This document shows positions 6,519 through 23,876 of a DNA stretch of 64,000 nucleotides, in pieces. Origin of the DNA: Extensimonas perlucida (GTDB lineage Bacteria > Pseudomonadota > Gammaproteobacteria > Burkholderiales > Burkholderiaceae_C); contig NZ_VMYE01000001.1 of assembly GCF_007655255.1 (NCBI RefSeq), positions 1-64,000 of the forward strand, written 5' to 3'. Positions within the stretch are counted from its first letter, which is position 1, and every line of letters begins with the position of its first letter. Below the pieces are notes generated by a model. It saw only the letters and a list, made by a program, of their open reading frames with translations. It was not told the origin of the DNA and ran no database searches. A program made the translations under genes and the position numbers.

Positions 6519-7093
6519 GCGCACGCCTGAATGCCGGGGTAGGCACGAATCTGCCCACCGGTTTGCCTACCCCTTTGCCCACCCCCCTGGCAGCCGCGCT
6601 GGAGACCTCCGGCGTCCATCTGCCGATCCCTTACCTCGACCTCTCCGCCCAGGTCATCCGCGACCTGCCGCTGGAGAACGTCGCTGCCCTGCAGCGCTTC
6701 ATCAGCGAGGCCAAGTCCGAACTGGCCACCCTGTCCAACCTGGTGCAGGCCGGCCTGGAGCTGCGCTACGCCGATGCAGCCAAAGCCCAACTGCTGGCCA
6801 AAGACCAGGACACCGGCACCACCCACATCTTCGACGGCGACTTCGACATCACCGTCGAGATCGGCAAGGACGTGAAGTGGGAGCCCAAGGGCCTGACCGA
6901 ACTGGTCGCCAAGATCGAAGCCACCGGCGGCGATCCGCGCGAATACGTCGAGATCAAGTACAGCGTCAGCGAGGCCAAGTTCAAGGCCTGGCCGCAGACC
7001 TTGCGGGCACCGTTCGAGGCCCTGCGCACAGTCACGCCGAAGGCACCGAAGTTCGTGCTGCGCCGCCTGGACACGACTGGGGAGGGTAAGTGA
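6515..7093 (+). CDS. Conserved phage protein of unknown function (early operon)
   Basis: 192 residues. The N-terminal ~27 residues are a low-complexity linker (LPTGLPTPLPTPL) produced by the TTTGCCCACC-type repeats; the real domain starts near LPIPYLDLSAQVIRDL. A helical region (~50-85) follows, then a mixed part with FDGDFDITVEIGKDV. No family recognised. Coupled to the HTH gene (ATGA) and to the ParB-like gene (1-bp overlap), so it belongs to the same early transcript. Confidence 0.75.
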   Translation: MSARLNAGVGTNLPTGLPTPLPTPLAAALETSGVHLPIPYLDLSAQVIRDLPLENVAALQRFISEAKSELATLSNLVQAGLELRYADAAKAQLLAKDQDTGTTHIFDGDFDITVEIGKDVKWEPKGLTELVAKIEATGGDPREYVEIKYSVSEAKFKAWPQTLRAPFEALRTVTPKAPKFVLRRLDTTGEGK

Positions 7094-8091
7094 TGACCAC
7101 TGCCTTTCCCCTGCATCCAGCCGCCGAGCTCTTCCCGGTCATGGATGAGGCGGCCTTCGCAGCCCTGGTGGCGGACATCGCCGCACACGGCCAGCGCGAA
7201 CCGATCCTCGTTCTGGATGGCCAGGTCATCGACGGTCGCCACCGCCTGCGCGCTTGCGAGCAACTGGGACTGGACCCCCTGGTGCGTCAGGTCAGCGCCG
7301 ACGACGGCGACCCCTTCGGTCTGGTCGTTTCGCTCAATCTGCATCGTCGGCATCTGAGTGAAGGGCAGCGCGCCATCATTGCAGCGCGTTTGGCCACACT
7401 GCCTCATGGCAGGCCTGATGCAAATGCGCAAATTTGCGCATTTACCCAGGACGAGGCGGCTCAGCACCTCAAGGTCTCTCGACGTACTGTGCAGCACGCA
7501 CGGGCAGTGCTCGATCATGGCATTGACGAGCTACAGGCCGCAGTCAAGGGTGGCGAAATTTCAGTCTCAGCAGCGGCCGAGCTCTCTCGTTTGCCCGCCG
7601 ACACCCAGCGCGCAGCCCTCACCAAAACGCCCGAGGAGATCCGCGCCATCGCCCGCGAGGTGAAAGCGCGCATCAAGGAGGCTGGCGTTTGCGGTCCCTC
7701 GGCCGTGAAGATCTTCGATCAGGTCGCCGCCGACCAGCACCTCTCCGGCATCGAGCAGTGCGCCGTGGTCGAGGTCATCAAGGCCGAAGAACCGCCGCTG
7801 CCCACCCCGTCTGAAGCCAAACGCATCGCCCAGCAAAACCGCACGCTGGTGCTCGGCTCCGATGGTCGCTACCACGGCCCGGAAGTCTCCCCCGAGTCCG
7901 CCCTTGCCACCGAACGGTGGCTGGCGCTGCGCGAAGGGCTGGAGTCGCTGTGCCGTATCGACACCGACCCGGAGTCGCTCATCGACTGCGTGCCGCATTA
8001 CCAGCACCAGAACCTCTCGGCCTGGCTCGCGCAGGCCGTCCCCCTCATCACCCGTTTCGACCAAGCCTGGAAAGGAGCTCGCCATGCGTGA
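7093..8091 (+). CDS. ParB/Srx-like domain protein with HTH
   Basis: 332 residues. The N-terminal ParB-like part shows FAALVADIAAHGQREPILVL and the signature DGRHRLRACEQLG (~48-60). An HTH (TQDEAAQHLKVSRRTVQHAR, ~116-135) follows. Such proteins bind specific DNA and some hydrolyse CTP or have nuclease activity; in phages they sit beside replication genes. It may be the specificity factor for replication or for transcription of this operon. Start ATG 7093 has GGGGAGGG just upstream. A perfect palindrome centred on GCAAATTTGC lies inside the coding sequence (7422-7443). Confidence 0.85.
   Translation: MTTAFPLHPAAELFPVMDEAAFAALVADIAAHGQREPILVLDGQVIDGRHRLRACEQLGLDPLVRQVSADDGDPFGLVVSLNLHRRHLSEGQRAIIAARLATLPHGRPDANAQICAFTQDEAAQHLKVSRRTVQHARAVLDHGIDELQAAVKGGEISVSAAAELSRLPADTQRAALTKTPEEIRAIAREVKARIKEAGVCGPSAVKIFDQVAADQHLSGIEQCAVVEVIKAEEPPLPTPSEAKRIAQQNRTLVLGSDGRYHGPEVSPESALATERWLALREGLESLCRIDTDPESLIDCVPHYQHQNLSAWLAQAVPLITRFDQAWKGARHA
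7422..7443. repeat. 22-bp perfect palindrome centred on GCGCAAATTTGCGC
   Basis: Every base of 7422-7443 pairs with its mirror partner. Its 20-bp right part (TGCGCAAATTTGCGCATTTA) recurs exactly at 34831-34850, and a related palindrome lies at 37414-37435. It sits within the ParB-like gene, where it encodes AQICAF. Confidence 0.85.
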
Positions 8092-13033: not shown

Positions 13034-13542
13034 GCACCGCTTTCCAGCACCGCAAACCGGCCCGGGCCACCCAGACGGTGTGGGTTGAGCGCTGGTCGCC
13101 ACCCAAACCGCTGGTCGGTGTGCATCCCATCGAGAAGATGCTCAACCGCCACACCTTCCTGGTGACACCCGAGTCACGCCTGGTGGTTGCTGTCATTGCG
13201 CGGGCCATCGGTGACTGTCTGTCCTTGGGCAGAAGCGTGCGCCGCGAAGCCCGGCGCTTTGTGCTCGGCGATGACCTTGGCCTGTGGTGCGACCTCGTCG
13301 GCTTGCATCCGGACTTCGTGCGCTTCGTGGCACGCAAGGCCGGCTACCTCGCCGACGAGAAGGCGCATTGGCAAAAAGTACCCATGAGGGTGCCGATCAA
13401 GGCTCACGTCCTGGCCCCAGACCCTGATCCCGGCATTGCCGCCAGCCACGAGACCGTGCGCAGCAGCGCCATTGGTCCTTGCGCGGCGATCCCCTGCGCG
13501 GCCACCCCTTTGAACACTTCTGGAGAAACTTCCCATGCTTGA
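13030..13542 (+). CDS. Conserved phage protein of unknown function
   Basis: 170 residues, starting at an ATGA overlap with the exonuclease. The central part (PIEKMLNRHTFLV, then AIARAIGDCLSLGRS and DDLGLWCDLVGLHPDFVRFVARKAG) is helical and looks like a small DNA-binding or adaptor protein. The C-terminus is Ala/Pro/Ser-rich and probably disordered. Overlaps the primase-helicase start by 8 bp. Confidence 0.65.
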   Translation: MSTAFQHRKPARATQTVWVERWSPPKPLVGVHPIEKMLNRHTFLVTPESRLVVAVIARAIGDCLSLGRSVRREARRFVLGDDLGLWCDLVGLHPDFVRFVARKAGYLADEKAHWQKVPMRVPIKAHVLAPDPDPGIAASHETVRSSAIGPCAAIPCAATPLNTSGETSHA

Positions 13543-15697
13543 TTTCAACGACATTCCACCCGCCGCAGGCGGTCCTGTGGACCTCAACGCTCAGCGCGAT
13601 GAGCTCAAACGTGAACTGCTGGCGCGGCTTCCAGCGGTGCTGATGGCACTGTTTCCGGCCGGCAAGATCCGTGGCAACAAGTTCCTGATCGGCAACATCC
13701 AGGGCGAGGCGGGCGATAGCCTGGAGATTGCGCTCGATGGCGACAAGGCCGGTCTGTGGCACGACCACGCCACCGGTGAGGGCGGTGACGTCTTCGACGC
13801 GATTGCCATCCACCACGGACTCGACACCAAGCGCGACTTCGCTGCCGTGATGGAAACCGCCGCCCGGCTGGTGGGCCGCTCGCTGGCCACGCCGATGCCC
13901 ACTCGCTCGGAGGTGCCAATTGATGCACTCGGGCCGCACACCGCCAAGTGGGACTACCTCAGCGCATCGGGCGAGCTGATCGCCTGCGTCTATCGCTACG
14001 ACCCGGAGCCCGGCAAGAAGGAGTTCCGCCCCTGGGATGTACGCGCCCGCATGTGCCGCGCCCCTGATCCCCGGCCGCTCTACAACCTGCCCGATGTCTC
14101 GCGCGCCGACAGCGTGATCCTGGTCGAAGGCGAGAAGTGCGCCGACGCCCTGATCCGCATGGGCATCACCGCCACCACGGCGATGAACGGCGCCAAGGCG
14201 CCCATCGACAAAACCGACTGGCGTCCGCTGGCGGGCAAGGCCGTGCTGATCTGGCCAGATCGCGATGCGCCCGGCTGGGACTATGCCGAGGCCGCCGCGC
14301 GGGCCTGCGTCAGTGCCGGTGCGGTGTCAGTCGCTATCCTGGTGCCGCCCACGGATCGGCCGACTGGCTGGGATGTGGCCGATGCCGTGGAGGAAGGGTT
14401 CGACGTGCAGGCCTTCCTCGACACCGGCGAGCGGCGCATCGTCAAGGCGGCGCCGAGCCTCTTGCCGACTTACAGCCTGGGCCATCTGCTTGATGACGAT
14501 TCGCCCCTGCCGCCGGATCTGATCGAGCCGCGCGTGCTTACCCCGGGCGGGATGCTGGTCTTTGGCGGTGCGCCCAAGGTGGGCAAGAGCGATTTCCTCT
14601 TGTCTTGGCTCACCCACATGGCCGGTGGTGCGGCGTTCCTGGGCATGCGCCCGAGCCGTCCGCTGCGCGTCTTTTACCTGCAGGCCGAGGTGCAGTACCA
14701 CTACCTGCGCGAACGGGTGAAGGGCATTGCGCTGCCGCCCAGCCGCGTCCTGGATGCGCGCACGCACTTCGTGGCCACACCGCAGCTGCGCCTGATCCTC
14801 AACGACGAGGGGTTGGCGCAGGTGATTCCGGCAATGGAGCGCGCCTTCAACGGATCACCGCCGGATGTGATCGCCATCGATCCGATCCGCAACGTCTTCG
14901 ACGGCGGCGAGGGTCAGGCCAGCGAGAACGACAACGCGGCGATGCTCTACTTCCTGTCGCAGCGGGTCGAGCGTCTGCGCGATGCGGTCAATCCCAGTGC
15001 CGGCATCATCCTGGTGCACCACACCCGCAAACTCGGCAAGAAGCAGTTCGAGGAAGACCCCTTCCAGGCCTTGGCCGGGGCCGGCAGTCTGCGCGGCTAC
15101 TACTCGACCGGGATGCTGCTGTTCCGTCCCGACGAGACCCGCACGCCGCGCGACCTGATCTTCGAGCTTCGCAACGGCGCGGCCATCCCGCAAAAGCACA
15201 TCGACAAGATCGAGGGCGAGTGGCGCGAGATCAACCCCAGCGTGCGCCTGGCGATGCAGGACTACGGCGCCAAGCTCGATGCGGAGCGCCGGCGCAAGCG
15301 CGATGTGATCCTGCAGATGATCTTCGATGAGGCAGCCGCCGGGCGTTGCTACCTCTCCAGCCTCTTTGCCAAGACCTTCGAGAACAAGGGCGGGCTCGGT
15401 GGCATGCGCAGCATTAGTGAGCGCATCGCGGTGCTCGCCGCCCAGGGCTACATCAAGTTCTTCCGCAACGCCCAGGACTATGGTCTGCCGTCCTGCAAAG
15501 GCAGCAAACACGGCTACCTGTGCGTCGAGGACATGCGCATCAAGCGGCCCCTGGGCGAGCCCGATCCGGTCAGCGGTGAGGTCACCGAGACGAATCTTCT
15601 GGTGCTGCCGACCCACTACGTCTGCCCGCAGACCGGGGTGCATCTGCCGGTCGAGAACCCGAACGTGTGGGTCTATCAGGAGGACGTCCAGCCATGA
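13535..15697 (+). CDS. Primase-helicase fusion (TOPRIM plus RepA-like ATPase)
   Basis: 720 residues. The first ~110 residues are a zinc-free primase-type N-domain (LWHDHATGEGGDVFDAIAIH). A TOPRIM motif VEGEKCADAL (~195-204) and IWPDRDAPG follow. The C-terminal half is a RepA/AAA_25 hexameric helicase: Walker A GAPKVGKSD (~343-351), Walker B DVIAIDPIRN (~446) and LVHHTRK (~493). It should both prime and unwind DNA at the phage origin. GGAGAAAC lies before the ATG. It is the largest early gene and precedes the structured 15.7-16.0 kb stretch. Confidence 0.9.
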   Translation: MLDFNDIPPAAGGPVDLNAQRDELKRELLARLPAVLMALFPAGKIRGNKFLIGNIQGEAGDSLEIALDGDKAGLWHDHATGEGGDVFDAIAIHHGLDTKRDFAAVMETAARLVGRSLATPMPTRSEVPIDALGPHTAKWDYLSASGELIACVYRYDPEPGKKEFRPWDVRARMCRAPDPRPLYNLPDVSRADSVILVEGEKCADALIRMGITATTAMNGAKAPIDKTDWRPLAGKAVLIWPDRDAPGWDYAEAAARACVSAGAVSVAILVPPTDRPTGWDVADAVEEGFDVQAFLDTGERRIVKAAPSLLPTYSLGHLLDDDSPLPPDLIEPRVLTPGGMLVFGGAPKVGKSDFLLSWLTHMAGGAAFLGMRPSRPLRVFYLQAEVQYHYLRERVKGIALPPSRVLDARTHFVATPQLRLILNDEGLAQVIPAMERAFNGSPPDVIAIDPIRNVFDGGEGQASENDNAAMLYFLSQRVERLRDAVNPSAGIILVHHTRKLGKKQFEEDPFQALAGAGSLRGYYSTGMLLFRPDETRTPRDLIFELRNGAAIPQKHIDKIEGEWREINPSVRLAMQDYGAKLDAERRRKRDVILQMIFDEAAAGRCYLSSLFAKTFENKGGLGGMRSISERIAVLAAQGYIKFFRNAQDYGLPSCKGSKHGYLCVEDMRIKRPLGEPDPVSGEVTETNLLVLPTHYVCPQTGVHLPVENPNVWVYQEDVQP

Positions 15698-16269
15698 AAA
15701 ACCTCGTCCATCCGCCTCTGAAAAACGGCCCCGAACGCTGCAAAAGCTCGGAGGTTTTTTGCAAGCCTTCAAACCTCCAAAACGCAACTATCAAGGAAAT
15801 CAACAGCTTGCAGAGGATGTGCAGTAACCGTCCTCATGACCTGCAGAGGATGTGCAAGACCATGAAAACCCAACAACGACAAGGACTTACGGCATTTGAG
15901 GACCACCACTGCAAACACCCCCCTGGTTTACACCAGGGGGGGAGTAAATCCCCCCTGGTGTTAAACCGTGGTCCTGCAAAGCTCCAGGCTGTGCATCGGA
16001 TTGCCTTTGCCCGCTGCCCTGAAATTGGCACTGTCTTGATGCTTGAAGGCCAGCGCTATGTGTTGGTCGACTGCACACCCCATACCAAGGCCAACGGGCA
16101 GCCGACGATCTTGTTGCATTGGGAAAGCCACTGCCCAGACTGCGGTGCCACCTTCCTCGTCAAGACCGGCCTGAAAGCCAGTGCGATCAATCGCCGCTGC
16201 GAACAGCATCACCGGATGGGTGTGCCGGTGGCCAAAGGCAGTAAAGCGTGGCGAGGAGGTCGGAAATGA
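15694..16269 (+). CDS. Zinc-finger phage protein, start uncertain
   Basis: 191 residues if begun at ATG 15694 (overlapping the primase stop). The first ~90 codons run through hairpins and direct repeats and look non-protein-like (HPPLKNGPERC, HHCKHPPGLHQGGSK), so the true start may be ATG 15861 or 16036. The convincing part begins near HRIAFARCPEIGTVLMLEGQ and includes CPDCG and a later RRCEQHH, a probable zinc finger. It probably acts with the replication proteins around it; the family is not recognised. Confidence 0.55.
   Translation: MKNLVHPPLKNGPERCKSSEVFCKPSNLQNATIKEINSLQRMCSNRPHDLQRMCKTMKTQQRQGLTAFEDHHCKHPPGLHQGGSKSPLVLNRGPAKLQAVHRIAFARCPEIGTVLMLEGQRYVLVDCTPHTKANGQPTILLHWESHCPDCGATFLVKTGLKASAINRRCEQHHRMGVPVAKGSKAWRGGRK
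15750..15778. repeat. Inverted repeat GGAGGTTT / AAACCTCC
   Basis: The arms 15750-15757 and 15771-15778 are exact complements around a 13-nt loop. It is the first of several structures just downstream of the primase-helicase gene. Confidence 0.7.
15809..15856. repeat. Direct repeat TGCAGAGGATGTGCA (two copies)
   Basis: Two identical 15-bp copies at 15809-15823 and 15842-15856, with a 33-bp period. They lie between two hairpins in a stretch whose coding status is doubtful, and they could be initiator-binding iterons. Confidence 0.75.
15918..15967. repeat. Competing G/C-rich hairpins, candidate origin or attenuator
   Basis: A perfect hairpin CCCCCCTGG-TTTACA-CCAGGGGGG (15918-15941) shares its right arm with a second, larger hairpin (15925-15941 with 15950-15967) that pairs 17 bases with one bulge. 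The two cannot form at once. Such mutually exclusive structures occur in attenuators and in single-strand origins. Located next to the primase-helicase gene. Confidence 0.7.
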
Positions 16270-16733
16270 ACACGAGCATTCTGGCCCTGGACCTGGGCAC
16301 GACCACCGGCTGGGCCTTGGTCAGCCGCGACGGACTCATCAGCGGCGGCAGCGAATCCTTCAAGCCGCAGCGCTTCGAAGGTGGCGGAATGAGATACCTG
16401 CGCTTCAAGCGCTGGCTCACCGACATCAAGCAGTGTGCCGATGGGCTCAACTGGGTGGTGTTTGAGGAAGTCAGGAAACACGCGGGTGTCGATGCGGCCC
16501 ATGCCTACGGCGGCTTCATGGCGCACCTGACGGCCTGGTGCGAACACCACCAGATCCCGTATCAAGGTGTGCCGGTGGGCACGATCAAGAAGCACGCCAC
16601 CGGCAAGGGCAACGCCGGCAAGGCGGAGATGATCGCGGCGTCCAAGGCGCGCGGCTTTGATCCGGTCGACGACAACCACGCTGATGCGCTGGCGCTGCTG
16701 GACTGGGCGATGGCCCAAGGGGGTGTGGCATGA
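16266..16733 (+). CDS. RuvC-like Holliday-junction resolvase (RNase H fold)
   Basis: 155 residues from ATG 16266 (GAGGAGGTCGG upstream). The catalytic acids of the RuvC/RNase H fold are in LALDLGTTTGWA (Asp ~9), VVFEEV (Glu ~68) and DDNHADALALL (Asp ~138-142). The basic segment GTIKKHATGKGNAGKAEM contributes to DNA contact. In phages such enzymes cut recombination or replication junctions before packaging. Overlaps the gene on each side by 4 bp. Confidence 0.85.
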   Translation: MNTSILALDLGTTTGWALVSRDGLISGGSESFKPQRFEGGGMRYLRFKRWLTDIKQCADGLNWVVFEEVRKHAGVDAAHAYGGFMAHLTAWCEHHQIPYQGVPVGTIKKHATGKGNAGKAEMIAASKARGFDPVDDNHADALALLDWAMAQGGVA

Positions 16734-17098: not shown

Positions 17099-17685
17099 CC
17101 AAGAAGACGCAACGCGCCAAGGCACGTGCCGAGAAGAAGCCACGCATCGGCGAGGAGCACATCCGCCCGGACGGCAGTGTGATCCGCTACGTGCGCGAGG
17201 AGGACGATGACCAGAAGCCGGTTGACCACTACCGCACCGTGGACACGCTGGCGCTGATGCTCAGGAACGGCAGCATCACCGGCGCGATGCACGATGCCGG
17301 GCAGCAGTTCTCGCAGGACTTCGCGCGGGCGTTTGGCAGCGGTGTCGCCAGTCCCAAGCTCGATGGTCTGCCGGGTGGTACAGCGCCTGGGCAGATGATG
17401 GTCGAGAAGAACGCCGGCGCTGCCCGCTCGGTGCGGGAGGCACTGGATGCCGTGGGCGGCAGTGGCAGCCCGGCGGGATCGGCGCTCTGGTATGTGGCCG
17501 GGCTGCAGATGTCGATCCGCGATTGGGCATTGCGCGATGGCTGGAACGGCAAGCGAGTCGAGAAAAACGAGGCCAAAGGCATCCTGGTCGCGGCACTCGG
17601 CGTGCTGGCTCGGTACTACGGGTATGAGCATTCAGGATCACGTCCGCACGGACGTGGCGCTCTGACCACCAGACTATCGCCTTGA
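17095..17685 (+). CDS. Conserved phage protein, possible regulator ending early operon
   Basis: 196 residues from ATG 17095. It opens with a very basic stretch (TKKTQRAKARAEKKPR), then RPDGSVIRYVREEDD and a helical C-terminal domain with GMQ-like packing (SALWYVAGLQMSIRDWALRD, then GILVAALGVLARYYG). The arrangement resembles small phage regulators of late transcription, but I cannot assign a family. A strong terminator follows 5 bp after the stop, so this is the last gene of the early operon. Confidence 0.65.
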   Translation: MTKKTQRAKARAEKKPRIGEEHIRPDGSVIRYVREEDDDQKPVDHYRTVDTLALMLRNGSITGAMHDAGQQFSQDFARAFGSGVASPKLDGLPGGTAPGQMMVEKNAGAARSVREALDAVGGSGSPAGSALWYVAGLQMSIRDWALRDGWNGKRVEKNEAKGILVAALGVLARYYGYEHSGSRPHGRGALTTRLSP

Positions 17686-17689
17686 GTGC

Positions 17690-17726
17690 AAAGACCCTGG
17701 CCAAAGACGGTCAGGGTCTTTCGTTT
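17690..17726 (+). terminator. Rho-independent terminator of the early operon
   Basis: Stem AAAGACCCTG / CAGGGTCTTT (17690-17699 and 17712-17721), 12-nt loop, then a T-rich tail (TCGTTTATT). Confidence 0.85.
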
Positions 17727-17756
17727 ATTGCGTTTGTCGTTTATTTCGTTTATCAT
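17722..17756 (+). promoter_or_regulatory. Promoter with CGTTTAT repeats for the PIN toxin-antitoxin operon
   Basis: Four CGTTTAT-type copies (17722, 17731 degenerate, 17738, 17747) overlap a possible promoter, TTGCGT (17728-17733), 17-bp spacer, TATCAT (17751-17756). The placement suits autorepression by the HTH antitoxin encoded 40 bp downstream (inference). Confidence 0.55.
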
Positions 17757-17795
17757 CGCAGACCGGCGCACGAAACAGCCACCAAGGAGAGCACG

Positions 17796-18260
17796 ATGAC
17801 CACGACCCAACTACCGCAGACGATGCCTACGGCCGAAGAGGTGGCGCTGGCTCGCGAGAGCGGGCGGGCGCTGTCGGCCTACCTGCAGATGCGCTCTGAA
17901 ACCCAGCAGATCGAGATATTCGATGACAAAGGGACGGCGCATCCCGTGCGCGTTCCGATGTCGGCACTGCGTCTGCTGGTGGATGTGCTGACCGAAATTG
18001 GTGAGGGCAACGCGGTCAGCATCATCCCGGTGCATGCCGAACTGACCACCCAGGAGGCGGCTGATGTTCTCAACGTATCGCGCCCGCACCTGGTGAAGCT
18101 GCTGGAAAGCAAGGAGATCCCGTTCCACAAGACGGGCACTCACCGCCGTGTGCGCTACCAGGATGTGATCGCCTACAAGGAGCGCATCGATGCCGAGCGC
18201 CGTAAAGCCCTGGATGCACTGGCCGAGCAGGCGCAAGAATTGGGACTGGGGTACGAATGA
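17796..18260 (+). CDS. Excisionase-type HTH antitoxin of PIN toxin pair
   Basis: 154 residues from ATG 17796 with AGGAGA 8 nt upstream. Residues ~90-145 hold the excisionase/MerR-like HTH (LTTQEAADVLNVSRPHLVKL, then RRVRYQDVIAYKERID). The N-terminus contains MSALRLLVDVLTEIGEG. This form of antitoxin is found directly before PIN-domain toxins. The stop overlaps the toxin start (ATGA). It likely neutralises the toxin and represses its own promoter via the CGTTTAT repeats. Cargo gene of the prophage, giving possible plasmid-like maintenance. Confidence 0.8.
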   Translation: MTTTQLPQTMPTAEEVALARESGRALSAYLQMRSETQQIEIFDDKGTAHPVRVPMSALRLLVDVLTEIGEGNAVSIIPVHAELTTQEAADVLNVSRPHLVKLLESKEIPFHKTGTHRRVRYQDVIAYKERIDAERRKALDALAEQAQELGLGYE

Positions 18261-18829
18261 GTTCGCACTTCACGGTCGTCTACGACGCCTGCGTGCTTTA
18301 CCCCGCGCCGCTGCGGGATCTGCTGATGCGGCTGGCGCTTACGGACCGGTTCCGTGCGCGCTGGTCGGATGCCATCCACGACGAGTGGATTCGCAATCTC
18401 CGCAAGCAGCGCCCCGAGCTCGATCCTGCCGCTCTGGAAAAAACGCGCACTCTGATGAATTCGAGTGTGCGCGACAGCCTGGTCGAAGGCTTCGAGCACC
18501 TGATTGCGGCCATCGAGTTGCCCGACCTTGATGATCGGCACGTGGTGGCGGCGGCCATTCACAGCGGCGCTGAAACCATCGTCACGTTCAACCTGAAGGA
18601 TTTCCCGTCTGGTGCGCTGGACCGCTACAACCTGGACGCCCAGCACCCGGACGACTTCATCGTTGATCTGTTCGACTTGCACCCCGCATCGGTTCTACAG
18701 GCATTGGCTGAGCAGCGGGCCTCCCTGAAAAGACCACCCAAGACCGCTGACGAGTTTCTCGACATCTTGCTCAAGCAGGGGCTGACGCAAACCGTGTCCA
18801 TCCTCAAAGACTGGAAGACAGCCTTCTGA
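18257..18829 (+). CDS. PIN-domain toxin (VapC-like ribonuclease)
   Basis: 190 residues. PIN-fold acidic residues are seen in VVYDACVLYP (Asp ~9), the DEWIRNLRK segment (~47), LPDLDDRHVVAAAI (~95) and TFNLKDFP (~115). PIN toxins cut tRNA or rRNA in a Mg-dependent manner. It is longer than classic VapC (~130 aa), with an extra C-terminal ~60 residues (PKTADEFLDILLKQG). Translationally coupled to the HTH antitoxin. It is bounded by a terminator on the left and a promoter on the right, so it is a self-contained cassette. Confidence 0.8.
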   Translation: MSSHFTVVYDACVLYPAPLRDLLMRLALTDRFRARWSDAIHDEWIRNLRKQRPELDPAALEKTRTLMNSSVRDSLVEGFEHLIAAIELPDLDDRHVVAAAIHSGAETIVTFNLKDFPSGALDRYNLDAQHPDDFIVDLFDLHPASVLQALAEQRASLKRPPKTADEFLDILLKQGLTQTVSILKDWKTAF

Positions 18830-19768: not shown

Positions 19769-19955
19769 TCGTGGCTGACACATCTGACGGGTCCTCCCGG
19801 GCCATCTAAAAAGCGGGGGACGCGCCAACCACCCGGCTTGCCTAGCGCCAGCGACAAAAAGAGGTTGCCAGTTGCCACCCAGGTTTCCACCCGTTTCCAC
19901 GCCGAGGTGATCCACCCCTGACGATTGATTGACCCGCCCGGCCCGGAGGAATGCG
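19769..19955. other. Candidate cos region with GTTTCCACC repeats
   Basis: Gene-free region immediately before the Nu1-like gene, the same position as cos in lambda. It has GTTGCCACCC (19871-19880), GGTTTCCACCC (19882-19892) and CGTTTCCACG (19892-19901), with further copies continuing inside the terminase gene. In lambda, cosB contains R sites (CGTTTCCTTTCT) bound by gpNu1; these repeats could be the equivalent. The nicking site itself was not identified. Confidence 0.45.
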
Positions 19956-20519
19956 ATGGGACTGTCCATCCGGGCCTATGCCCAACACCGTGGCGTGAGC
20001 CACACCGCTGTGGCCAAGGCCATCAAGGCCGGGCGCATCAGCAAAGAACCCGATGGCACCATTGACCCTGCCAAGGCCGACGCCCAGTGGGCGCGCAACA
20101 CGCTGCCGTCGCAGAACCTGAACACCGGCGCCGAGAAGCCTGCGCCTAAGGTGGCAACCCCACCTGTTTCCACCCCGGTTTCCACGGCACCGGTTGCCAA
20201 CCGCGAGTTGCAGCCGCCTCTGGAAACCAACCGGATTTCCGCCCCCGATTACCAGACCAGCCGCGCCATCCGCGAGGCCTATGCCGCGCGCCTGGCCAAA
20301 CTCGAATTCGAAGAACGCACGGGCAAGCTGCTCAACGCCGACGAGGTGAAGGTCAAGCACTTCAACCTCGCGCGGTTGCTGCGTGACCGCATCCAGCAAA
20401 TCCCTCGCAAGCTCGCCCCGCAGATCGTGGCGGCCGTGGTCGCGCAGCCCGACCAACGCGTGGTGGAAGACCTGCTGATGGAGGCGATCCGCGAAGCCCT
20501 GGAGGAACTCTCCCGATGA
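19956..20519 (+). CDS. Terminase small subunit, lambda Nu1-like
   Basis: 187 residues from ATG 19956 with GGAGG 6 nt upstream. The N-terminal HTH (SIRAYAQHRGVSHTAVAKAI) binds packaging DNA. A Pro/Thr/Ser linker (~55-85), produced by the GTTTCCACC repeats, joins it to the helical oligomerisation part (AYAARLAKLEFEERTGKLLN, then ARLLRDRIQQIPRKLAPQI). This is the layout of Nu1-type small terminases. The large subunit lies 6.4 kb downstream; accessory genes occupy the space between. Overlaps the methyltransferase gene by 4 bp. Confidence 0.8.
   Translation: MGLSIRAYAQHRGVSHTAVAKAIKAGRISKEPDGTIDPAKADAQWARNTLPSQNLNTGAEKPAPKVATPPVSTPVSTAPVANRELQPPLETNRISAPDYQTSRAIREAYAARLAKLEFEERTGKLLNADEVKVKHFNLARLLRDRIQQIPRKLAPQIVAAVVAQPDQRVVEDLLMEAIREALEELSR
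20166..20228. repeat. GTTTCCACC repeats inside the small terminase gene
   Basis: Copies at 20166-20176, 20177-20187 and 20191-20202 (GGTTGCC variant), plus an inverted copy TGGAAACC at 20221-20228. They encode the linker between the two terminase domains and match the repeats in the upstream candidate cos region. Confidence 0.65.
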
Positions 20520-21940
20520 CTGTCACACCCGCCATGGCCAGCCGTATCGAGATGTGGCCACTGGATCGGCTCAAGCCCTACCAGAGAAATGCCCGCACCC
20601 ACTCCGATGCCCAGGTGGCGCAGATCGCCGCCAGCATCGTCGAGTTTGGTTTTACCGCACCACTCTTGGTGTCGGAAGACGGCGGAATTCTTGCCGGACA
20701 CGGTCGATTAGCCGCCGCCAGAAAGCTCCATCTGGACGCCGTGCCCGTGGTGGTGCTCGACCACCTGACGCCCACCCAGCGCCGCGCCTACATCCTGGCC
20801 GACAACCAACTGGCGCTGCAGGCCGGGTGGGATCAGGAACTGCTCGCCGTCGAGTTGGCTGACCTGTCAGCAGCGGGCTTCGATCTGGCATTGACCGGAT
20901 TCAGCGATGAGGAACTGGCCGACCTGCTCGGCGATATCGAAGATGCCGAACGTGCCGATGAGGCTGCGCCCATTGCCGAACCCGAAGATGAGGATATCCC
21001 GGATGCGCCGGCCACCCCGGTCAGCCAGCCGGGTGACATCTGGCAACTGGGCGCCCACCGCCTGATCTGCGGCGACTCGACCGATCCGTCCGTGGTCGCT
21101 GCCCTGATGGCCGGCGACCGGGCGGGCCTGTGCTTCACCAGCCCACCCTACGGTCAGCAGCGCAACTACACCCAGGGCATCGCCGACTGGGATGCGCTGA
21201 TGCGCGGCGTCTTCGCCAACCTGCCGATGGCGGACGACGGCCAGGTGCTGGTGAACCTGGGCCTGATCCACCGCGACAACGAAGTGATCCCGTATTGGGA
21301 CGGCTGGCTCGCCTGGATGCGAACCCAAGGCTGGCGACGCTTTGGCTGGTACGTCTGGGATCAGGGGCCAGGGATGCCCGGTGACTGGGCCGGGCGCCTC
21401 GCACCCAGCTTCGAGTTCGTCTTCCACTTCAACCGGCAGAGCCGCAAACCCAACAAGATCGTGCCGTGCAAGCACGCCGGCCAGGACTCGCACCTGCGCG
21501 CCGACGGCAGTTCCACGGCGATGCGCGGCAAGGATGGTGAAGTCGGTGGCTGGACCCATGCCGGGCAGCCCACTCAGGACTACCGCATCCCGGACAGCGT
21601 GATCCGTCTCATGCGCCACAAGGGCAAGATCGGTCGGGACATCGACCATCCGGCGGTGTTTCCGGTGGCCCTGCCCGAGCACATCTTGCTGGCGTACTCG
21701 GACCCGGGTGACATCGTCTTCGAGCCCTTCGGCGGCTCCGGTACCACGATCTTGGCCGCCCAGAAGACGAATCGCGTGGCCCGCGCCATCGAACTGGCCC
21801 CGTCCTACACCGACGTGGCGGTCAAGCGCTTCCAACAAAACCACCCCGACATCCCGGTGACCTTGCTGGCCACCGGACAGACCTTTGCCGAGGTCGAATC
21901 AGAACGACTGGAGAACACCGATGCAAGCCTGGCTCGCTGA
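20516..21940 (+). CDS. ParB-domain / DNA methyltransferase fusion 1 (TSPPY type)
   Basis: 474 residues. Residues ~13-110 are a ParB-like domain (KPYQRNARTHSDAQ, then ILAGHGRLAAARKL). After an acidic linker (~140-170) comes an N4/N6 amino-methyltransferase with catalytic TSPPYG (~206-211) and SAM motif FGGSGTT (~403-409), order beta class. The SPPY form often methylates cytosine N4, though adenine is possible. Such enzymes protect phage DNA from host restriction. No cognate endonuclease is encoded nearby. Directly coupled to the terminase gene and overlaps the second fusion by 20 bp. Confidence 0.85.
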   Translation: MTVTPAMASRIEMWPLDRLKPYQRNARTHSDAQVAQIAASIVEFGFTAPLLVSEDGGILAGHGRLAAARKLHLDAVPVVVLDHLTPTQRRAYILADNQLALQAGWDQELLAVELADLSAAGFDLALTGFSDEELADLLGDIEDAERADEAAPIAEPEDEDIPDAPATPVSQPGDIWQLGAHRLICGDSTDPSVVAALMAGDRAGLCFTSPPYGQQRNYTQGIADWDALMRGVFANLPMADDGQVLVNLGLIHRDNEVIPYWDGWLAWMRTQGWRRFGWYVWDQGPGMPGDWAGRLAPSFEFVFHFNRQSRKPNKIVPCKHAGQDSHLRADGSSTAMRGKDGEVGGWTHAGQPTQDYRIPDSVIRLMRHKGKIGRDIDHPAVFPVALPEHILLAYSDPGDIVFEPFGGSGTTILAAQKTNRVARAIELAPSYTDVAVKRFQQNHPDIPVTLLATGQTFAEVESERLENTDASLAR

Positions 21941-23264
21941 CAAACTGGAGCACTGGCCTATCGAGCGCCTGTTGCCCTATATCCGAAATGCCCGCACCCA
22001 CTCCGAGGCCCAGATCGCCCAGATCGCGGCGAGCATCGCCGAGTTCGGCTTCACTGCGCCAATACTGGCCGGGTCGGACGGCGTGATCGTGGCCGGTCAC
22101 GGGCGTTTGGCGGCGGCGCGCAAGCTGGGGTTGGCGAGCGTGCCGGTGGTGGTGCTGGAGCATCTCACCCCGACCCAGCGTCGGGCTCTGGTGATCGCCG
22201 ACAACAAGATCGCCGAGAACGCCGGGTGGGACGAGGAACTGTTGCGTCTGGAGCTGGCTGAGCTGCAGGAGGCCGACTTCGACCTGGCGCTCACTGGCTT
22301 CGATGCCGCCGAGTTGCTGGAGATCATGGCGGGCGAGGAAACCACTGCCGAGGGCCACACCGACGAGGATGCTGCTCCCGAGGTCCCGGTCACCCCAGTG
22401 TCCAAGCCGGGTGATGTCTGGATCATGGGCAAGCACCGGCTGCTCTGTGGCGACAGCACTGATGACGCGAGCTACGACACGCTGCTCGGCAGCGAGAGGG
22501 TGGCGATGATCTTCCAAGATCCACCCTATAACGTGGACTATGCCAATACGGCCAAGGACAAGCTGCGCGGCACCAACCGTCCGATCCTGAACGACAACCT
22601 TGGGGACGGATTCCAGGACTTCCTGCTGGCGGCGTTTAAGCCCGCGCTGGCCCGATGCAATGGCGCGGTCTATGTGGCGATGTCCTCCAGTGAGCTCGAT
22701 ACGCTGCAAGCAGCCTTCCGCGCCGCCGGCGGCAAATGGTCGACCTTCATCATCTGGGCCAAGAACACCTTCACGCTGGGCCGCTCGGACTACCAGCGCC
22801 AGTACGAGCCGATCCTCTACGGCTGGCCCGAGGGGACTACCCGCCACTGGTGTGGCGACCGCGACCAGGGGGACGTCTGGCACTTCAACAAGCCGCGCGT
22901 GAACGACCTGCATCCGACGATGAAACCGGTGGAACTGGTCGAGCGCGCCATCCGCAACTCCAGCCGGCCCGGTGATGTGGTACTCGATCCCTTCGGCGGC
23001 TCTGGCACCACGCTGATCGCCGCTGAGAAGTCTGGTCGTCAGGCGAGGTTGATTGAGCTCGATCCCAAGTACGTGGACACCATTGTTCGCAGGTGGCAGG
23101 ACTACGCTGGAGCGCAGGCAGTGCGTGAGGCCGATGGCGTTCGATTCGATGACCTCGTTGGCGCTGACCCCGGAGAATCGTCACGCCTCAGTGACGGCAG
23201 CGGTGTGGCGGCACTTGGGGAAGTTGGCGCAACCGAGGAAGGGGCGTCCTGCATTGGAGCCTGA
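21921..23264 (+). CDS. ParB-domain / DNA methyltransferase fusion 2 (DPPY type)
   Basis: 447 residues from ATG 21921. It repeats the architecture of the gene before it: ParB-like domain (NARTHSEAQIAQIAASIAEF, then VAGHGRLAAARKL), acidic linker, catalytic DPPYNVDY (~199) and FGGSGTT (~357). DPPY points to adenine-N6 methylation. The two ParB halves are clearly similar, so the pair arose by duplication and then diverged in the catalytic half. The last ~25 residues (after LVGADPGE) are read from DNA that is the antisense of the NERD gene, suggesting an altered C-terminus after insertion of that gene. Confidence 0.85.
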   Translation: MQAWLADKLEHWPIERLLPYIRNARTHSEAQIAQIAASIAEFGFTAPILAGSDGVIVAGHGRLAAARKLGLASVPVVVLEHLTPTQRRALVIADNKIAENAGWDEELLRLELAELQEADFDLALTGFDAAELLEIMAGEETTAEGHTDEDAAPEVPVTPVSKPGDVWIMGKHRLLCGDSTDDASYDTLLGSERVAMIFQDPPYNVDYANTAKDKLRGTNRPILNDNLGDGFQDFLLAAFKPALARCNGAVYVAMSSSELDTLQAAFRAAGGKWSTFIIWAKNTFTLGRSDYQRQYEPILYGWPEGTTRHWCGDRDQGDVWHFNKPRVNDLHPTMKPVELVERAIRNSSRPGDVVLDPFGGSGTTLIAAEKSGRQARLIELDPKYVDTIVRRWQDYAGAQAVREADGVRFDDLVGADPGESSRLSDGSGVAALGEVGATEEGASCIGA

Positions 23265-23876
23265 TTTGGCTGTGCGCTGAATCAGTGACCCACCGCATTT
23301 CGGGCAGGTTGTCGTGCTGCTATGGCGCTGCTGCAATGACGCGATGTGCGCGTTCCGGGTGGCCCAGGTCTTGGGCAACATCCCGGTGCGCAGCGCCTCG
23401 ATCAGCTGGGCGACTTCCTCATCCGAGAACAGCACGGTCTGCTTGCTCTTGATGTAGGTCGCGTAGCCCTTGGTCATCACGTTTGGCGGCATCGGGGTTT
23501 TCAGTTCAGCCTCACCCCAGAACATCACCACCGAATGCAGTTTGTCGTGATCGATCCCCAGGAAGTCAGCCAGCGCCTTGGTGTGCCGGTAATTCTGGTG
23601 CAGCGGATTTTGGAAGCGATGCTTTTTGCCGAAGAGGCTCTGGGTCCACTGCTTGCTGTGCTCGTCGCCGAAGATCCAGCCCTTCATGTTCTTGGTCTCG
23701 ACGACAAAAAGCCCGAAGCGCGAGACGATGACGTGATCGATTTGCGTGGTGCCGTTGGCCGTCGGAATCGTCACGTTGTTGATCGAGTGATAGATCTTGT
23801 CGTCCAGGAACAGGGTGTGCGCCACCGCTCCCTGCGCTTCCCCCAGCCAGCCTTTGAATACCGACAGCAATGACAT
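23181..23876 (-). CDS. NERD-domain nuclease-related protein with topoisomerase-type zinc finger
   Basis: 231 residues from the ATG at 23876, with GGGAGA just upstream. The N-terminal NERD domain shows TQIDHVIVSRFGLFVVETKN (nuclease-like Asp and Glu-x-Lys). A C4 zinc finger follows at the C-terminus: CPKCGG, then FLGCANFPKCRH. This combination is common in bacteria and thought to process or bind nucleic acid. Its 3' end overlaps the methyltransferase 2 gene by 84 bp on the opposite strand. It lies in reverse orientation among phage genes with its own start, which fits an accessory 'moron' gene. Confidence 0.8.
   Translation of the reverse strand: MSLLSVFKGWLGEAQGAVAHTLFLDDKIYHSINNVTIPTANGTTQIDHVIVSRFGLFVVETKNMKGWIFGDEHSKQWTQSLFGKKHRFQNPLHQNYRHTKALADFLGIDHDKLHSVVMFWGEAELKTPMPPNVMTKGYATYIKSKQTVLFSDEEVAQLIEALRTGMLPKTWATRNAHIASLQQRHSSTTTCPKCGGSLIQRTAKSGSNAGRPFLGCANFPKCRHTAAVTEA

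Follow-up and report, generated by a model that had tools for sequence, protein, structure and literature searches.

What function has the short interval between the primase-helicase gene and the following resolvase gene in this prophage-like DNA? The window, that is, the whole stretch of 64,000 nucleotides analysed, has a prophage-like gene order: ParB-like, Sak4-like, helicase, Cas4-type exonuclease and primase-helicase genes, then an array of short repeated words with hairpins, then a RuvC-like gene, which is the far boundary of the interval in most relatives. The first-pass annotation had described this interval as a dense cluster of repeats and hairpins within a reading frame unlike protein, and had proposed either a phage replication origin or an RNA attenuator. 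The flanking genes are:

13535-15697, plus strand: primase-helicase gene (720 residues; primase at about 1-304, AAA_25 at 323-501, predicted DNA-binding part at the C-terminus)
16266-16733, plus strand: RuvC-like resolvase gene (phrog_159, E 2e-30)

The upstream protein matches the PHROG primase/helicase family phrog_239 (E 3e-63). AAA_25, a RecA-like helicase family, is the sole Pfam family reaching the threshold of E 0.001 and covers residues 323-501 (E 6e-22). Residues 1-304 match NCBIfam PRK07078 with a score under the family cut-off.

Positions 1-46967 of the window are identical in every base to G000:C49:86967-40001, over the part of that contig retrieved; the assembly either carries this prophage-like DNA twice or contains an assembly duplicate. 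Among three genomes of the genus, the same 301 bp occur in the window's own genome only (1/3). Elsewhere in the window, a ParB-like protein and methylases with a ParB-like N-terminal part are encoded at 7090-8091, 20516-21943 and 21885-23267; two methylase frames, alike by eye, adjoin each other. At 17682-18829, the genes for a helix-turn-helix (HTH_17) protein and, after it, a PIN-domain protein form a possible toxin-antitoxin pair.

The repeats lie directly behind the primase stop codon:

15698-15905, plus strand: word (iteron) array; the frame is open (ORF 15694-16269) without codon-position bias
15739-15777, both orientations: looser word copies, found by eye and kept in the related locus L199: TGCAAAAGCTC at 15739-15749, GAGGTTTTTTGCA at 15751-15763 and CAAACCTC at 15770-15777
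15750-15757 and 15771-15778: 8-bp inverted repeat, GGAGGTTT and AAACCTCC
15798-15810, plus strand: IHF-consensus site AATCAACAGCTTG, an exact match to WATCAANNNNTTR
15809-15823, plus strand: word copy TGCAGAGGATGTGCA, 15-bp direct repeat
15842-15856, plus strand: word copy TGCAGAGGATGTGCA, 15-bp direct repeat, period 33

Both kinds of repeat reported in the first-pass annotation, the 8-bp inverted repeat and the two identical 15-bp direct repeats spaced by 33 bp, are thus present. The inverted repeat is ordinary by itself, as 40 of 300 shuffles have one within 60 bp. The 15-bp direct repeat was reached in none of 500 dinucleotide shuffles of 15750-15967; direct repeats of at least 15 bp are also present in 5 of the 586 other 218-bp steps of the window. 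The array of the window is weak, with two exact word copies in addition to the looser ones and a top 8-mer in three copies. An 11-base word pattern was found twice across the window against 0.63 expected, which is not above chance. No clear AT-rich unwinding stretch was seen at the array, and the GC skew of the window, judged by eye, has no clear turning point at the array and hairpins. The IHF consensus is WATCAANNNNTTR, and the exact match within the array is the only one in the 64-kb window (0.32 expected; one also arises in 25 of 100 shuffled windows). An IHF-alpha gene is present in the host genome, above the family cut-off.

Related loci were collected by six scans with primase-helicases and one with the end of the ORF, each contributing at most its best 80 loci, so that close relatives dominate. 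The 306 entries, of which 10 lack the primase stop, were reduced by dropping very short or repeated intervals to 223 intervals, which are distinct but not independent, near copies being still among them. Most of these 223 (best 80 loci per scan) carry a word array in both orientations downstream of the primase-helicase gene. In many of them the top 8-mer has 5-12 copies, against about two in shuffles, with only 2-3 copies in the CATATGAG group. The words vary from phage to phage, and include GTTGGC, GATTGC, GTTTGC, GATGGC, GTGGGC, GAATCC and ATCCGG, among others. They are concentrated in the array: where the flanks are long (40 loci), the top word was counted 283 times within array DNA totalling 8,835 bp, compared with 15 times in the 506,842 bp outside. 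DnaA boxes were sought in the 223 arrays (best 80 loci per scan); none is exact, and 8 of the 223 have one with one mismatch. The closest relative of the window among the loci listed is L199, in which almost every base of the array is kept.

The IHF-type site is a regular part of this arrangement. It is exact in 118 of the 223 intervals (1.9 expected) and has at most one mismatch in 186 of them, against 34 in shuffles, both counts being over the best 80 loci per scan; 182 of these 186 sites are on the plus strand. A later test set of 143 entries gave 54 new loci (75 had already been seen and 14 were too short), or 48 without exact duplicates; in these more distant loci the exact site is rarer (15 of 48).

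The words were compared with the proteins encoded around them. The distance between words is correlated with that between residues 590-700 of the primase-helicase, given residues 100-400, with a partial r of 0.56 (1 in 1000 permutations) in 102 loci, a set from which near copies and the 23 of 214 loci lacking an enriched 6-mer had been left out. When 30-residue segments are used, the values are 0.36-0.53 from residue 581 onwards and -0.23 to 0.19 before it. For RuvC, which is encoded beyond the array, the value is 0.05 (not significant) as opposed to 0.59 for the C-terminus in 83 loci. Values of 0.05-0.30 were obtained for other phage proteins; several are significant but weaker than that of the C-terminus, as would be expected from shared history. 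On these alignments, the words covary with the C-terminal part of the primase-helicase (about residues 580-720) and not with RuvC. Since the words and the domain are neighbours, joint recombination adds to the covariation.

Three loci illustrate this. The primase of the window differs from that of L007 at 68 residues, 51 of them among the last 120, and the words differ; it differs from that of L199 at 29 residues, 7 of them among the last 120, and the arrays are the same. L199 combines the C-terminus and array of the window with the hairpin block of L007, showing, as far as such a comparison goes, that the C-terminus and array can stay coupled while the hairpin block is exchanged.

The covarying part of the protein contains a predicted domain:

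15275-15538, plus strand: predicted winged-helix domain, residues 581-668 (AlphaFold model and covariation), with codon 625 (Arg) at 15407-15409 and codon 628 (Ser in the window) at 15416-15418

The AlphaFold model of residues 561-720 has a mean pLDDT of 81. Its listed structural matches are mostly winged-helix proteins, with a best Z of 6.6; Foldseek gave no match at E 0.001 (best E 0.25). Weak LexA_DNA_bind matches occur in 12 of 49 members of the family, that of the window not being among them, and a PDB sequence search with the C-terminal profile returned nothing. Four plasmepsin-type matches to the whole protein in the PDB, at E 0.03 or worse, were rejected as chance. The C-terminal part is thus predicted to be a winged helix, with modest fold scores.

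The presumed recognition helix reads GLGxxR-T-I-z. Among 711 alignment columns, column 628, that is, position z, ranks first in tracking base X of the word AGNNXGC in 39 deduplicated loci. Arg628 accompanies AGNNGGC in 105 of 105 loci and Asn628 accompanies AGNNTGC in 17 of 21 (best 80 loci per scan); in the remaining four loci with T, position 628 is Leu, Ser, Arg or a gap. The odd rows are L007, L009, L141 (the gap) and L254. In a wider count, also over the best 80 loci per scan, Arg628 occurs with G in 114 of 128 cases, and 26 of the 27 cases of Asn628 have T. Arg-G and Asn-A are textbook contact pairs. Residue 625 appears to be linked to the next two bases: of the loci with Arg625, 142 of 146 have GC after X, compared with 1 of 36 loci with another residue, L199 being among the exceptions.

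Of the 48 new loci, 21 have a clear word (R-G 6, N-T 10, Q-T 3, V-T 2), and the rule holds in all 16 of those with Arg or Asn at 628, although the two Wolbachia phage WO records in the test set are near copies (236 of 237 bases) and WOVitB had been inspected before the test. The remaining 27 have no clear word; 12 of them carry Arg or Asn, including the WOMel record L455, which is uninformative and was not counted, its annotated C-terminus being unrelated and its "R" a misalignment. The clearest case is the pair L080 and L075, which have the same array layout and differ at 25 positions across residues 50-720; one has AGTTGGC (9 copies) with Arg628 and the other AGTTTGC (10 copies) with Asn628. 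Mapped onto a tree, base X shows at least eight changes when the primase core is used, and only five when the tree is built from the C-terminal part with the helix left out. The Ser628 of the window is outside the Arg/Asn rule and gives no prediction. With this residue and a weak array, the window's own case rests on its relatives.

The interval 15698-15975 is probably, with a probability of roughly 0.8, a phage replication origin. The primase-helicase gene lies immediately before it, and the C-terminal domain of the gene product would read the words. The comparison supports the origin proposed in the first-pass annotation through the conserved place, the word array, the IHF-type site, the covariation of words and domain, and the loss of codon bias described below. 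As the covariation suggests, the winged-helix-like domain would bind the words. The host would bend the DNA at the IHF-type site in the middle of the array, and the RecA-type helicase and the primase would then be placed on the opened DNA, as in the SaPI and P4 systems. Because words and reading domain change together, each origin would be specific for its own initiator.

The array could also be an operator or silencer by which the primase-helicase or another phage protein controls its own operon, replication starting elsewhere. The array does sit within a run of genes on one strand, and covariation speaks for binding rather than for its purpose. However, no sigma-70-like promoter was found in 15400-16400. 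Origins typically show such 200-bp arrays, with words in two orientations and an IHF site, after a helicase gene. Iterons in this place are described in the available part of PMC7581432. We regard control of the operon as unlikely.

Beyond the array the DNA can fold:

15899-15906 and 15968-15975: outer stem enclosing hairpin 2, AGGACCAC and GTGGTCCT
15918-15941, plus strand: hairpin 1, arms 15918-15927 and 15932-15941, 10-bp stem, loop TTAC
15925-15967, plus strand: hairpin 2, arms 15925-15943 and 15949-15967, its 5' arm common with hairpin 1

Two mutually exclusive hairpins sharing one arm had been noticed before; they are present, and the folds exceed those of shuffles. Folded as single-stranded RNA, 15880-15990 has a z of -4.0, and as single-stranded DNA, 15885-15985 has a z of -5.6, none of 200 shuffles being as good in either case. 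A perfect stem of at least six pairs with the loop TAC is found in 171 of the 223 intervals (mean 0.15, maximum 1 in shuffles), with 15 different six-base stems. When the loops TTAC, TTC and TAT are included, the hairpin is found in 193 and absent from 30 of the 223; these counts are again over the best 80 loci per scan. In the later, more distant loci it is present in 27 of 48 and absent from 21. A second hairpin follows hairpin 1 in the loci folded. The stems of hairpin 1 are nearly free of wobble pairs, 168 being perfect over seven pairs and five having one non-pair (T-G in two), although related copies inflate these counts and many stems are inherited. This leans towards a function as DNA. 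In the proposed origin the hairpins might serve as a site of priming or assembly on DNA that is single-stranded or extruded.

An RNA attenuator or switch for the downstream genes, the other proposal of the first-pass annotation, would make use of the competition between the hairpins. Indeed, the 3' arm of hairpin 1 can pair again downstream in 73 of the 193 relatives with a hairpin (best 80 loci per scan), where 7.6 are expected; this is possible in the window but not in L199. The attenuator is nevertheless not supported and is very improbable, because 15400-16400 holds neither an intrinsic terminator-like site (hairpin and T run) nor a sigma-70-like promoter, and the relatives keep near-perfect Watson-Crick stems. 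It would also leave the words and the IHF site unexplained. An Rfam scan of 15400-16500 gave three matches, none near the gathering score of its family.

In phage lambda, cos joins repeats, an IHF site and a dyad, and is read by the small terminase. The interval could by analogy be a packaging site, and the window has a possible small-terminase gene at 19929-20519 (no Pfam match), whose relatives have a partial correlation of 0.29 with the words in 13 loci. In the same 13 loci, however, the C-terminus of the primase gives 0.58, and the residue-to-base link is in the primase, which makes a packaging site highly improbable.

The interval lies in an open frame, and its coding status was assessed by comparison with L199, whose primase is 96% identical to that of the window. 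Over the first 212 nt of ORF 15694-16269, the differences at codon positions 1/2/3 are 7/4/8, with 9 synonymous and 8 non-synonymous codons, as opposed to 16/4/64 in the last 1200 nt of the primase genes; the impression of a sequence unlike protein is therefore borne out. Across seven length classes of relatives, in which the pairs are not independent, the third-position share of the differences is 0.29-0.40 in the interval and 0.38-0.86 in the primase end; the 305-nt class is without contrast (0.38 in both). A likely coding part is at the end of the ORF:

15991-16269, plus strand: section of the downstream ORF that is probably truly coding, for a small protein with a suggested GTG start at 15991

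Relatives of this last third (about codons 96-191) are 36-47% identical, and those in L004, L007, L056 and L199 begin past the hairpins with a start of their own, which suggests the GTG at 15991 as the start in the window. The product of the whole ORF had no match among phage records, and the last third was found in a class sample of 369 genomes only in its own genome (1/369). In 110 of the 202 intervals of at least 200 nt (best 80 loci per scan), the RuvC frame runs uninterrupted from the primase stop onwards. Something other than coding, perhaps coupling of transcription or translation, may maintain this open frame, the sequence not being read as protein. In L012, L022 and others the RuvC frame crosses the array without codon-position bias, and the annotated N-terminal extensions of such resolvases may therefore be translated non-protein sequence. 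That the interval encodes the N-terminal part of the downstream protein, with incidental repeats, has the open frames in its favour but is scarcely credible given the even spread of differences over codon positions in the interval compared with the primase end.

The origin proposed here has a candidate counterpart in a named phage. Directly after RepA of Wolbachia phage WOVitB, L310 4607-4840 is a candidate phage WO origin. Its words, AAGTTGGC/AAGATGGC, occur in both orientations, its IHF-type site, AATCAATAGCTTA, is exact, and the helix of the protein reads GLGSERSIRER, which includes Arg628. This fits the pattern of array, IHF site and residue 628 seen in the other sequences. In the available part of a WO genomics paper, "origin of replication" concerns the Wolbachia chromosome (PMC9203015); the word "iteron" is absent from the main text of that paper.

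The primase half is also found in Acidithiobacillus phage AcaML1 (L309), joined there to a different C-terminal half that looks SF3-like by eye; the repeats behind this gene, CTGACGG, are unlike the words. The reading end appears to have been exchanged and the repeats with it. Together with L163-L167, whose intervals are short (137-157 bp), AcaML1 belongs to a sister family with this primase half and the other C-terminal half. There, a core that hardly varies, TTTACGCC..ACACGCG, is flanked by one variable word in inverted orientation.

A broader reading, tentative and held with less than even confidence, is that these loci represent an undescribed large class of one-protein phage replicons, in which a TOPRIM primase, a RecA-type helicase and an origin-reading winged helix are joined in one chain. 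The protein sequence would then be enough to name the origin, three bases of the word being set by residues 625 and 628 of the recognition helix; the words would diversify fast, driven perhaps by origin-directed attack or incompatibility, and the invariant TAC hairpin would be the start site of the primase. If this is true, the WO interval is the first predicted origin for that phage. A literature search found no description of this origin, which is no proof of absence. The locus offers a testable origin with a predicted reader and a base-level rule for many proteobacterial prophages and for phage WO. Should the rule hold, sequence could be enough to read off phage origins and their compatibility, and the pairs of word and domain would show how an initiator and its origin shift specificity together.

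Several known replicons resemble this arrangement. In RSF1010, oriV is served by the RepA helicase, ssi hairpins and a separate iteron-binding protein, RepC. The likeness lies in the RepA-like helicase and in the hairpins near the iterons, and the WO protein matched here is annotated as "similar to RepA of plasmid RSF1010"; here, however, the iteron-binding part appears to be fused to the primase-helicase. The alpha protein of satellite phage P4, which acts on ori and crr, likewise combines a primase, a helicase and an origin-binding winged helix (predicted in the present case) in one chain, and its repeats also have two orientations. Its helicase is of the SF3 type and its repeats form two separate regions, as opposed to AAA_25 and the one region seen here.

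As in SaPI Rep/ori and SCCmec Cch2, the repeats follow immediately after the gene of the helicase, here the presumed initiator. The available part of PMC7581432 describes a C-terminal domain of SaPI Rep that recognises iterons just downstream of its gene, and a bound C-terminal domain of Cch2. The SaPI Rep helicases described there are DUF927 or D5/Primase_Cterm proteins, and that part mentions neither an IHF-type site nor a TAC hairpin for SaPI Rep/ori, both of which are present here (PMC7581432). Because the helicase family differs, the present system does not belong to the SaPI type itself but is a variant. A parallel to the covariation is RepA of the Vibrio PLE, in which, according to the available part of PMC8263062, the DNA-binding domain covaries with the origin and is swapped as a module, an origin-directed nuclease giving a reason for change. 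The PLE protein, as described in the same part of PMC8263062, binds by an N-terminal RepA_N domain to three semi-palindromic iterons of about 30 bp, whereas here a C-terminal domain would read many words of about 8-10 bp by a residue-to-base rule.
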